Source: an uncultured Campylobacterales bacterium (GTDB taxonomy: Bacteria > Campylobacterota > Campylobacteria > Campylobacterales > Arcobacteraceae). From it: a stretch of DNA of 64,000 nucleotides. Under the pieces are notes generated by a model. The model had not been told where the DNA came from. It worked only from the letters and a program-made list of their open reading frames with translations, and did no database searches. The stretch spans positions 434,001 through 498,000 of the forward strand of contig CANLWY010000001.1 in NCBI GenBank assembly GCA_947494995.1, in the 5' to 3' direction. Of the stretch, positions 52,534 through 56,242 are shown piece by piece (within the stretch, counting starts at the first letter, position 1; the number at the start of each line of letters is the position of its first letter). The position numbers and the translations under genes are program-made.

Positions 52534-53256
52534 TTATGATCCTTTTACAGTAGCTAGTTTTCTTCTCATATATGCGATTTTATTTTGAAGAGGTAAATGT
52601 TTTGGACAAGTATCTTCACATCCAAGAAGTGTCATACATCCAAAAATACCATTATCATCTCCGATTAGTTCATAATAATCATCTGCATCTCTTTCATCGT
52701 GTGGGTCACACTCAAATCTTGCAACTCTGTTAAGTCCAACAGCTCCTACAAAATCCTCTTTTATAAGTTTTGTTCCACATCCTGCAACACAACATCCACA
52801 CTCAATACATCTATCAAGTTCAAAAACTGCATCTGCAACTTCAGGTTCAATTGGTTCTTCAATTGCTGCAATATCAACCTCTTTTGAAGTATGAATCCAA
52901 GACTCAACTCTTTTACTCATAGCATCCATCCAAACACCTGTGTTTACAGATAAATCTTTAATTAATTTGAATGTTGGAAGTGGAAGCAATATAATCTCTT
53001 CTGGTAAATCTTTTGTTAAAGTTCTACAAGCTAATTTAGGACGCCCATTAATCATCATAGCGCAAGATCCACAAATACCAGCTCTACATACAAAGTCAAA
53101 AGATAAACCGGCATCCATTGTTTCTCTGATTTGAGTAAGAGCTAAATAAATAGTCATACTATCTGTTTCAGTAATATTATAATCTTGAAAATATGGTCTT
53201 AAATCTTTTCCTTGGGGGTTGTATCTAAGAATTTTTAGTGTTAGTTCCCTTGCCAT
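52534..53256 (-). CDS. frdB: Fumarate reductase iron-sulfur subunit
   Basis: 240 residues. The [2Fe-2S] cluster is bound by CRAGICGSCAMM and the following RPKLAC; the second domain has CIECGCCVAGC and FGCMTLLGCEDTCPKHLP for the [4Fe-4S] and [3Fe-4S] clusters. The sequence between (EDFVGAVGLNRVARFECDPH) is very close to Wolinella FrdB, which marks the menaquinol-dependent Campylobacterota type. The ATG overlaps the frdA stop. Carries electrons from heme b to the flavin. Confidence 0.96.
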   Translation of the reverse strand: MARELTLKILRYNPQGKDLRPYFQDYNITETDSMTIYLALTQIRETMDAGLSFDFVCRAGICGSCAMMINGRPKLACRTLTKDLPEEIILLPLPTFKLIKDLSVNTGVWMDAMSKRVESWIHTSKEVDIAAIEEPIEPEVADAVFELDRCIECGCCVAGCGTKLIKEDFVGAVGLNRVARFECDPHDERDADDYYELIGDDNGIFGCMTLLGCEDTCPKHLPLQNKIAYMRRKLATVKGS

Positions 53257-55238
53257 TATTTATCTCCTAATCTTATATTTTTTCTTTTGTATTCAGCTTG
53301 TAGGGGAAATGGCATCAGAGCTTCTTGAACCTCATATCTGTCTTTACCTTCAGCTTGTAGTTTTTCAGTTAATTCATCAACTTCTTTTTGTCTAATTTCA
53401 CTTTGTGGATTTTCAATTAAATTACCTTTTGCACCATAGCCTCTAAATCCAGGAGGTATTTCCATAGTCATAATATCAAGATCTTCATATTCAACTGTTG
53501 GCATAGTATTTCCATCTTTCCAAGAAGTAAGAGTTCTTTTTAGCCAATTTGCATCATCTCTTTTTGGATAATCCTCTCTAGTGTGAGCACCTCTACTTTC
53601 TGTTCTATCAAGGGCACCCTTTGCAACACAAAGTGCAACTTTTAACATCATTGGTACTCTATATGCTTCTTCAAGTTCAGGGTTTGCACTTAAATCTTTG
53701 TCTTTTATTCCAATATTTTTAGAATCTTTTAAAAGTTGTTCAAGTTCAGTAACTGCTTTAGTAAGACCATCTCCATCTCTAAAGATACCAACATATTCTT
53801 GCATAAGTTTTTTCATTCTGTTTTTAATTCTAAAAACGTCTTCTTTTCCATTTCTTGAAATAAGCTCTTTCATATAAGCTTCTTTTTCAAATACAAATTT
53901 TTCAATTACTTCTGTTTTTATGTCAATTTGCGTATCAACACAAAAGTCTGCAAAGAAGTTACCAATAATCATACCAGCAACAACAGTTTCAGAAACAGAA
54001 TTTCCTCCAAGTCTATTAAATCCATGCATATCCCAACAAGCAGCTTCTCCTGCTGAAAAAAGTCCCTTTAAAGTAGGAGACTCACCTGTTGGTTTTGTTC
54101 TAATTCCACCCATAGAGTAGTGTTGCATTGGAAGAACTGGAGCCCAACCTTTTTTGCCTTCATCTGCTGGATCAATTCCTGCAAAATATTCACAAATTTC
54201 TTGAACGTCTCTTAAATTCTTTTCAATATGTTCTCGTCCAAGAATAGAAATATCAAGCCATAGGTGTTTACCATAAGGAGAATCAACACCTTTTCCTTTT
54301 CTAATATGTTCTATCATTCTTCTTGAAACTACATCTCTTGAAGCTAAATCTTTTTTCTCAGGTTCATAATCAGGCATAAATCTATGTCCATCAACATCTC
54401 TAAGAACTCCACCATCTCCTCTACAACCTTCTGTTAATAAAATACCAGATGGAAAAAGTGGAGTGGGGTGAAATTGTACAGCTTCCATATTTCCTAGTTT
54501 TGCAAGTCCTGTTTCAAGTGCAATTGCTGTACCAATACCTTCACAAATAACGGCATTTGTAGTAATCTCATAAACTCTTCCATATCCACCAGTTGCAATA
54601 AGAGTTCCTTTTGCAACATAGGCAATTATTTCTCCAGTGATGAGGTCTCTAACAATTGCACCATAACATCTTCCTTCATGGTGAATAAGTCCAATAGCTT
54701 CTTTTCTATCTTCAATATTTACATCTCTTTTTAAAGCTTCATTGGCAACTGCAAAAAGCATAGTATGCCCTGTAGCATCTGAGGTATAACATGTTCTCCA
54801 TTTTTTGGTTCCACCAAAGTCTCTTGAATTAATAAGTCCATGTTTATCATCTGCTTCATGAATTGTTGTTCTTTTTGTATTTATTACTGCGTCATGGTCA
54901 CCTTTTTTAATTCTTGTCCATGGAACTCCCCAAGCTGCAAGTTCTCTAATTGCTTTTGGCGCAGTTGTAACAAACATTCTTGCAACATCTTGATCACATC
55001 CCCAGTCACTTCCTTTTACTGTATCTGTAAAGTGAACATCTTCATTATCGCCTTCTGACATTTTTGCATTACCTAAAGCGGCTTGCATACCACCTTGAGC
55101 AGCTGCACTATGAGATCTTTTAACTGGAACTAAACTTAAAACAGTAGTACTTAAACCTTTATTTGCAGCAGCAACAGCAGACCTTAGACCTGCTAATCCA
55201 CCACCAATTACTAATGCATCACAATATTTAATATTCAT
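53256..55238 (-). CDS. frdA: Fumarate reductase flavoprotein subunit
   Basis: 660 residues with covalent FAD. Visible features are [17 protein letters not shown] for [16 protein letters not shown] (the FAD-linking His region), [25 protein letters not shown] and [12 protein letters not shown] with the active-site Arg. The protein follows Wolinella FrdA almost block for block, including [14 protein letters not shown] and [15 protein letters not shown]. It reduces fumarate on the cytoplasmic side. In microaerobic growth it may also run as succinate dehydrogenase. Confidence 0.97.
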
Positions 55239-55250
55239 AATAAAACCTTC

Positions 55251-56021
55251 TTACTTATTAATAATTTCTTGTTGGTAGTTGTTTGGATTATATTTCATTG
55301 GTTGATGATCATATCTTTCTATACCAATTTTCATATAAGCTAACAGTGTTATAGTTCCTAAAGTTAAAAAGAAAAAACTTAAATATTTTTTTGCTTTTAG
55401 CATTTTTAATCTTGTTTCTTTAGGATTTTCTCCATCAAACCAACCCCATTTCATAGCAGCTCTATAAAGTCCTATTGAACCATGAAGTTCAACACAGATT
55501 AATAAAACCATATATAAAAGCCACATATTTTCATTTACAACTCTATAAGAACTTGTATATGGACCAATATTTTGTGGTTGAGTAAACATTATGTATAAAT
55601 GAATTGATACAAGGAACATCATGATAAGACCAGAAATCCATTGGAACATCCATAAAGAAGTATCTTGATGTTTCATCATTTTTGCATGTTCTTTTATTTT
55701 GATATATGCTTTATATGAAGTAGGGAATTTTCTAATTCCTAAAATAGCATGTAAGACTAATATGGCTGTGATAATAGCTACAAAGATAGATACTATAATT
55801 GGCAAGCCACCATCAAAAATAAAATCTAACTCAAACGCTTTTGTAACAGTATACATTGCATCTTTACCTAATAATATGGTAGATACAAAAAACATATGTC
55901 CCATCATGAAAATTGCAAGAATAACACCAGTAGCTGTAAGAAGCTTATCTAGTTTTGCAGGGACTCTACTTTTCTTTCCTTCTGGAGTGATGCCAGTAAA
56001 AGCTTCAATAATTTTCTCCAT
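55251..56021 (-). CDS. frdC: Fumarate reductase cytochrome b subunit (diheme)
   Basis: Membrane anchor oxidising menaquinol. With the start giving MEKIIEAF the protein is 256 residues, the same length as Wolinella FrdC as I recall. The four heme-ligand His are at 42, 91, 141 and 180, each two below the Wolinella numbers (44, 93, 143, 182). Glu178 in VELHG matches the E-pathway Glu180. This agreement and the AAAGGAG site decide the start; the longer frame adds 9 residues. First gene of frdCAB, with a structured leader. Confidence 0.95.
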   Translation of the reverse strand: MEKIIEAFTGITPEGKKSRVPAKLDKLLTATGVILAIFMMGHMFFVSTILLGKDAMYTVTKAFELDFIFDGGLPIIVSIFVAIITAILVLHAILGIRKFPTSYKAYIKIKEHAKMMKHQDTSLWMFQWISGLIMMFLVSIHLYIMFTQPQNIGPYTSSYRVVNENMWLLYMVLLICVELHGSIGLYRAAMKWGWFDGENPKETRLKMLKAKKYLSFFFLTLGTITLLAYMKIGIERYDHQPMKYNPNNYQQEIINK

Positions 56022-56028
56022 TTTTTCT

Positions 56029-56060
56029 CCTTTTAAATGGTTCCTCATTTAAAAGGAACC
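56029..56060 (-). promoter_or_regulatory. frdC leader with two mutually exclusive hairpins covering the ribosome site
   Basis: On the transcript, CCTTTTAAAT is perfectly complementary to ATTTAAAAGG, which includes the AAGG part of the frdC Shine-Dalgarno; the 10 bp stem has an 8-base loop. The alternative is GGTTCC with GGAACC (6 bp) using part of the same bases, which leaves the ribosome site free. A further 8 bp repeat (GCTACTTT/AAAGTAGC, 56073-56112) lies upstream. Function as a switch is inference. Confidence 0.6.
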
Positions 56061-56242
56061 GTCCTTTTTGTGGCTACTTTAGACATAGTTTGTAGAAAAT
56101 GTAAAAAGTAGCAAAATCTAAAGAGCTTTATTACAAAAGCCTCATCTTTGATTTTATGAGATGAAGTTTATAGAGTCAAAATGACCTTAAAGTGATATTT
56201 AAAAAAAGTTTTTGATTTTATTTTATAAGTTTTGCATAAAGC

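Follow-up and report, generated by a model that had tools for sequence, protein, structure and literature searches.

The frdC leader of the window

The window, a 64,000-nt stretch of DNA from an uncultured Campylobacterales bacterium, carries the frdCAB genes on the minus strand, and all parts of the frdC leader are given for that strand (Table 1). The frame starting at ATG 56021 (MEKIIEAF) fits the FrdC equivalog model from residue 1. An in-frame ATG at 56048 stretches the mechanical frdC open reading frame (ORF) to 265 aa; however, orthologs and the family model support 56021 as the start codon. A second FrdC paralog with 56% identity is encoded in the same genome (G000:C6:219051-219758; G and L numbers denote genomes and loci), and two FrdC paralogs are also found in many relatives.

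Table 1. Positions of the frd genes and of the frdC leader parts in the window.
Feature	Position	Strand	Basis
frdB	52534-53256	-	NCBIfam equivalog models
frdA	53256-55238	-	NCBIfam equivalog models
frdC, first gene of frdCAB	55251..56021	-	NCBIfam equivalog models
frdC start codon ATG	56019..56021	-	FrdC NF010072 match from residue 1, E 1.6e-104; relatives' frames begin here
Shine-Dalgarno AAGGAG of frdC, 3' end of the element	56027..56032	-	sequence
Stem B 3' arm CATTTAAAAGGA, contains the SD	56028..56039	-	
Stem A 3' arm GGAACC, loop of stem B	56039..56044	-	
Stem B 5' arm TCCTTTTAAATG, anti-SD	56046..56057	-	
Stem A 5' arm GGTTCC	56055..56060	-	
A-rich linker	56061..56072	-	sequence
Hairpin P1/P2 (GCTACTTT...AAAGTAGC)	56073..56112	-	arms 56073-56086/56099-56112; covariation in family
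CTTTAG, near-invariant motif separating P0 and P1	56118..56123	-	invariant in A4/A6
Hairpin P0 (GGCTTT-TGTAAT-AAAGCT)	56124..56141	-	P0 covariation in family
Whole element, one of seven confident copies in this genome	56028..56141	-	R1 and R2 matches
Candidate frd promoter TTGACT-17-TAAAAT	56151..56179	-	best promoter match; 5' of element
ATATCACTTTAAGGTCAT block 5' of promoter	56181..56198	-	kept in frdC leaders of relatives examined

Upstream of frdC, the sequence reads GGTTCCTTTTAAATGAGGAACCATTTAAAAGGA (56060-56028), followed by GAAAAA and the start codon. A sequence-only reading of this DNA had described a 10-base segment complementary to the frdC ribosome site. This segment is present, but the pairing spans 12 bp, in which TCCTTTTAAATG and CATTTAAAAGGA form stem B with the Shine-Dalgarno (SD) sequence inside it. 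The competing GGTTCC/GGAACC stem of that reading (stem A) was likewise recovered. Because positions 56057-56055 are common to both stems and the 3' arm of stem A is the loop of stem B, the two stems are mutually exclusive and only one fold can form at a time. A 76-nt fold yields stem B with z = -2.3, and 3 of 200 shuffled sequences fold equally well. With the SD forced open, the computed energy of the stem A fold is -12.5 kcal/mol versus -13.8 kcal/mol for stem B. The whole feature exceeds the interval first marked (56022-56112) and extends 5' through hairpin P1/P2, the CTTTAG motif and hairpin P0. Since the promoter match lies 5' of the element, the element should be part of the frd transcript; an alternative -10 sequence, TATAAA at 56172-56167, is the one kept in relatives. 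The ATATCACTTTAAGGTCAT block is a likely activator site.

We compared 14 orthologous frdC leaders, 13 of them from relatives. In the 13 relatives the leader is about 105 nt shorter and contains neither stem. The distance from GTCAT of the promoter block to the ATG is 165 nt here versus 49-73 nt in the relatives, and the promoter block, unlike the stems, is common to the leaders compared, as their sole shared part. As judged from these leaders, the window has gained about 105 nt between the frdC promoter and the start codon. A conserved leader specific to frdC was ruled out by the 13 relatives' leaders, which lack the stems. The observation of a switch-like leader was right; its frd-specific reading was not.

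A dispersed element ahead of many genes

A DNA search with the extra segment retrieved many copies, 70-77% identical, across the 16 genomes of the genus, from relatives bearing names such as Arcobacter and Halarcobacter. The copies read from this search all directly precede a gene, and the genes differ. Covariance model R1 was built from SD-adjacent copies and hence favors such copies; it matched in every one of the 16 genus members, with 4-25 copies per genome and 7 copies in the genome of the window. Across the family, 80 of 104 Arcobacteraceae genomes, from 16 of 20 genera, had matches, with up to 25 copies in a single genome. In 399 genomes of the order, the matches obtained outside Arcobacteraceae were all weak. 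A second model, R2, leaves out the SD and the switch, and it revealed 20 additional copies, every one ahead of a gene start. In the frdC leader, R1 matches 56028-56123 (E 1.6e-12) and R2 matches 56068-56141 (E 4.2e-5).

The element has about 120 bases and consists, in order, of P0, CTTTAG, a short T-rich stretch, P1/P2, an A-rich linker, and stems A/B ending in the SD. P0 is a 7-bp hairpin, the tetraloop of which is often CTCG or TTCT, and P1/P2 is a long hairpin that begins with CTAC or CTTC. Conservation sets in abruptly at position -19 relative to CTTTAG and stops at AAGGA. Each of the 109 copies examined lies ahead of a start codon, usually at 5-9 nt (four via tandem arrays). For 103 of them, the start of an ORF of 50 aa or more follows, most often 6 nt from the SD; an ArsC/Spx-like frame containing UGA follows two others, and the remaining four belong to tandem arrays in which another copy lies downstream. 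In 97 of 108 cases, the closest ORF 5' of the element is encoded on the same strand, and it often ends 14-60 nt before CTTTAG, so the element often fills the entire intra-operon gap. An upstream ORF in the linker was considered and rejected, as an ATG is there in some copies and, by eye, absent from most.

Some copies deviate from this layout. At L116 (G006), L190 (G110), L056 (G011) and G410:C475, two or three copies of the element, or of just its P0-P1/P2 module, stand in tandem. The copies at L106, L260, L265 and L108 contain all or part of another short dispersed repeat, TCTTCATAGCGYAGTCTTGTGRCGAACGAAGTGAAGAC, nested within them. In a longer variant, an extra small hairpin (TCTCGAAGAGAG and similar) lies between CTTTAGGATTT and P1 (L122, L126, L135, L166, L167, L187 and L263).

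The 103 downstream proteins fall into 69 clusters, giving at least 69 unrelated gene families with no common pathway. From their sequences, we take the downstream genes to include cysK, sufC, ferredoxin, hypB, bcp, DHFR, rubredoxin, hemE, ilvD, nifD, ddl, aroQ, guaA and many others; the identities of frdCAB, obgE, ppiC, a DnaJ-like gene and moeA were checked. A metabolite riboswitch would be expected ahead of genes of one pathway, and since no pathway unites these genes, neither such a riboswitch nor an oxygen switch is likely. At L104 (G000:C6, ~53.3 kb) and L137 (G004:C4, ~53 kb) the downstream gene encodes a small ArsC/Spx-like protein and has an in-frame UGA as its active-site codon (GIKT-UGA-xSVR), and the ortholog at L160 has Cys at the UGA position. 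The UGA-containing proteins are likely selenoproteins.

Rfam gave no match at the gathering score for the window or for 10 loci with strong copies, and an E-value scan of four loci gave unrelated weak matches only. Stav et al. 2019 reported unnamed Arcobacter-restricted intergenic motifs in Arcobacter sp. L (PMC6429828), which belongs to the same bacterial family, and the main text of that paper describes no motif like the element. No description of the element was found in Rfam or in searchable papers; the supplement of PMC6429828 lies outside that literature and may hold an earlier sighting.

Covariation and predicted energy balance

In the model alignment, which leans to its own model, pairing reaches 95.1% in P1/P2 and stem B. 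Double-change cells number 599 versus 221 in shuffled data, covariation is 0.524 versus 0.140, and pairing in slid-partner controls is 65% at most. A sequence-only alignment of P0/P1/P2 gave a covariation of 0.618 versus 0.180, and P0 alone scored 0.794 versus 0.251. In an alignment fitted to stem B, this stem is 91.7% paired, with double changes at 10 of 11 pairs. Pairing of the SD with an upstream anti-SD is thus conserved by covariation, as expected of a translational SD switch.

Such a switch should also have a conserved, exclusive alternative stem of comparable energy, and stem A provides it. Stem A is 92.6% paired even though it is absent from the model, and one of its pairs changes from C-G to U-A in 24 sequences. 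It is perfect in 84 of 106 copies, as opposed to 0.75% of shuffles, and its variants include GTCCC/GGGAC, GGTTCC/GGAACC, GTTTCC/GGAAAC and GTCTC/GAGAC. A chance origin of the stem pair is excluded by the 109 copies with covariation. The sequence-only reading had named conservation of both stems in relatives as a check; more than 100 related copies keep the two stems together, with compensatory changes, whereas the 13 orthologous frdC leaders have neither.

Over 106 copies, the computed median minimum free energy (MFE) is -11.4 kcal/mol, and with the SD open it is -9.6 kcal/mol versus -6.0 kcal/mol in shuffles. Freeing the SD has a computed median cost of 1.45 kcal/mol, rising to 5.6 kcal/mol when stem A is blocked, and stem A is thus predicted to relieve most of the SD sequestration. 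With a median of 1.4 kcal/mol, this cost differs little from the 1.0 kcal/mol of shuffled sequence, suggesting that the net translational effect may be small.

Spread and possible action of the element

Four genomes of the genus (G004, G005, G008 and G015) have the element at cysK; in G002 the copy there is decayed, with GTTCTC/GAGAAC, and the 11 other genomes of the genus lack it. The element-free genomes include G003 and G007, and CysK of G007 is 96% identical to that of G004. Precise empty sites, as expected of a MITE, were found by comparing G004 with G007 and G015/G005 with G003: filled and empty sites agree in the stop codon to the left and in GAAAGG or AAAGG to the right, with the element just 5' of the SD. 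Terminal inverted repeats or a clear target duplication, also expected of a MITE, were found neither at the cysK boundaries nor in 98 left flanks. The Y1 transposase (PF01797) is encoded in 8 of the 16 genomes of the genus, but is absent from G000, G004, G015 and others holding 7-23 copies, and no R2 match lies beside the existing Y1 loci. An IS200/IS605-type PATE or a REP (RAYT) partner was rejected on these two grounds. Copies at the same gene in different genomes are 75.6% identical, versus 66.6% for copies at different genes within one genome; the greater likeness of same-gene copies suggests that copies are also retained through vertical descent.

Other Campylobacterales genomes and many viral contigs carry the P0-P1/P2 module as an intergenic repeat that lacks the switch. 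Outside Arcobacteraceae this module lies before an SD and start codon in some cases and away from them in others. Within the family, the rpsB, thrC and panC copies keep P0-P1/P2 and lack stems A/B, suggesting that the switch is dispensable in places. The switch was probably added to a spreading hairpin module that is older than it. Exact-pattern scans revealed full elements with the switch in viral contigs (L314, L316-L319), ahead of genes that we take, on our own reading, to encode tail tube and virion morphogenesis proteins; plasmids and GenBank phages gave no element match by blastn. A weak match in the rpsL/rpsG region of G344 was judged a chance hairpin.

By description, the element resembles ERIC, BOX, Correia/NEMIS and REP/BIME, which are palindromic repeats of ~100 nt in intergenic and intra-operon positions and potentially RNA-active once transcribed; BOX and ERIC can change the expression of operon neighbors (PMC3049150, PMC2229807). 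Unlike ERIC, BOX, Correia and REP, the element has copies in a single orientation that end at an SD 5-9 nt from the start codon and form a two-state SD hairpin, and it has no terminal repeats and no Y1 transposase in several many-copy genomes. GTAG-tagged REPs with RAYT transposases (PMC3733652) likewise consist of short hairpins, arranged in tandem or as dimers, and carry GTAG at the foot of the hairpin; the GTAG of the element, however, is paired with CTAC inside P1 and is not an unpaired tag, and G000 has no Y1/RAYT gene. The metastable SD-sequestering hairpins of Helicobacter pylori aapA (PMC6733600) share a short anti-SD hairpin near the SD with a competing fold, compensatory changes, and a dependence on folding order, but they belong to a type I toxin mRNA, whereas the element is portable and forms the leader of at least 69 gene families.

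We favor, with hardly more confidence than doubt, the explanation that the element is a dispersed, portable cis-acting RNA with a balanced two-state SD hairpin, which occupies the ribosome-binding region of any gene it precedes. The SD would sit in stem B, and stem A, formed from the loop and part of the 5' arm of stem B, would compete with it, the pair being tuned to within 1-2 kcal/mol. As stem A would be complete before the SD is transcribed, fresh transcripts may be open and then partly relax to the closed form. We infer that the outcome is a moderate, gene-independent setting of second-cistron translation. P0 and P1/P2 would be a separable upstream module, probably parting two cistrons structurally. 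Gain and loss at orthologous junctions and carriage by phages suggest that the element spreads as a unit and may have reached frdC recently.

The main rival is a selfish, MITE-like DNA element with hairpins serving its own mobility and no regulatory role in the host, which we regard as possible though on the whole unlikely. Such an element would target or tolerate only the position 5' of an SD; stem B would arise because the element end matches the SD complement, and stem A would merely prevent silencing of the host gene. The cysK presence and absence between sister species with the host AAAGG retained, the tandem copies at L116 and L190, the phage carriage, the many unrelated host genes, and the related module in other Campylobacterales and viral contigs all agree with it. 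It is opposed by the missing terminal repeats and target duplication, by the distribution of Y1 genes described above, and by the persistence of copies at the same genes.

A bolder version of the portable RNA, a mobile translational switch, is an outside possibility. Here the anti-SD arm would pair with SDs to find sites, insertion would occur in one orientation just 5' of the SD, and the element's own counter-hairpin would leave the captured gene neither silenced nor unregulated, with phages carrying the unit.

It is somewhat less probable still that one global RNA-binding protein or small RNA picks the fold, such as CsrA acting on GGA in the stem B loop (GGGAC/GGAAC) and in the SD. GGA occurs in most loops and in the SD, and many copies per genome resemble a regulon; however, the loop GGA is lost with pairing kept in some copies, e.g., GGGGC (L070) and GGGTAC (L151), and the downstream genes share no pathway. 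Our analysis gave no sign of a ligand, small RNA or oxygen signal selecting the fold. An RNA thermometer, in which warming would melt the AU-rich stem B in favor of stem A, is very improbable: the computed SD-freeing cost falls from 3.0 kcal/mol at 10 °C to 1.0 kcal/mol at 45 °C, but the slope is shallow, with a predicted change of 1-2 kcal/mol over 10-45 °C instead of a steep SD opening (the cost for the window copy goes only from 2.3 kcal/mol at 4 °C to 1.5 kcal/mol at 37 °C), and the genes served are not mainly heat- or cold-shock genes. The frdCAB-specific on/off switch proposed by the sequence-only reading, or a metabolite riboswitch answering oxygen or fumarate, is scarcely credible, as only the position before frdC speaks for it, while the element is absent from the 13 relatives' frdC leaders and serves at least 69 unrelated gene families, standing before cysK, sufC, ferredoxin, hypB, obgE, ppiC, moeA and others.

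If the portable RNA element is the right explanation, the translation starts of many housekeeping genes across the family would be occupied by a spreading RNA that sets access to the SD through a two-state hairpin in fine balance. The gene classes concerned include Fe-S assembly, cysteine synthesis, hydrogenase, nitrogenase, cell-wall and tRNA enzymes, and fumarate reductase. A switch-like leader need not signal a riboswitch for the gene that follows. The element would directly illustrate how small mobile repeats can rewire translation instead of transcription, and sister species with and without a copy offer natural pairs for comparison.
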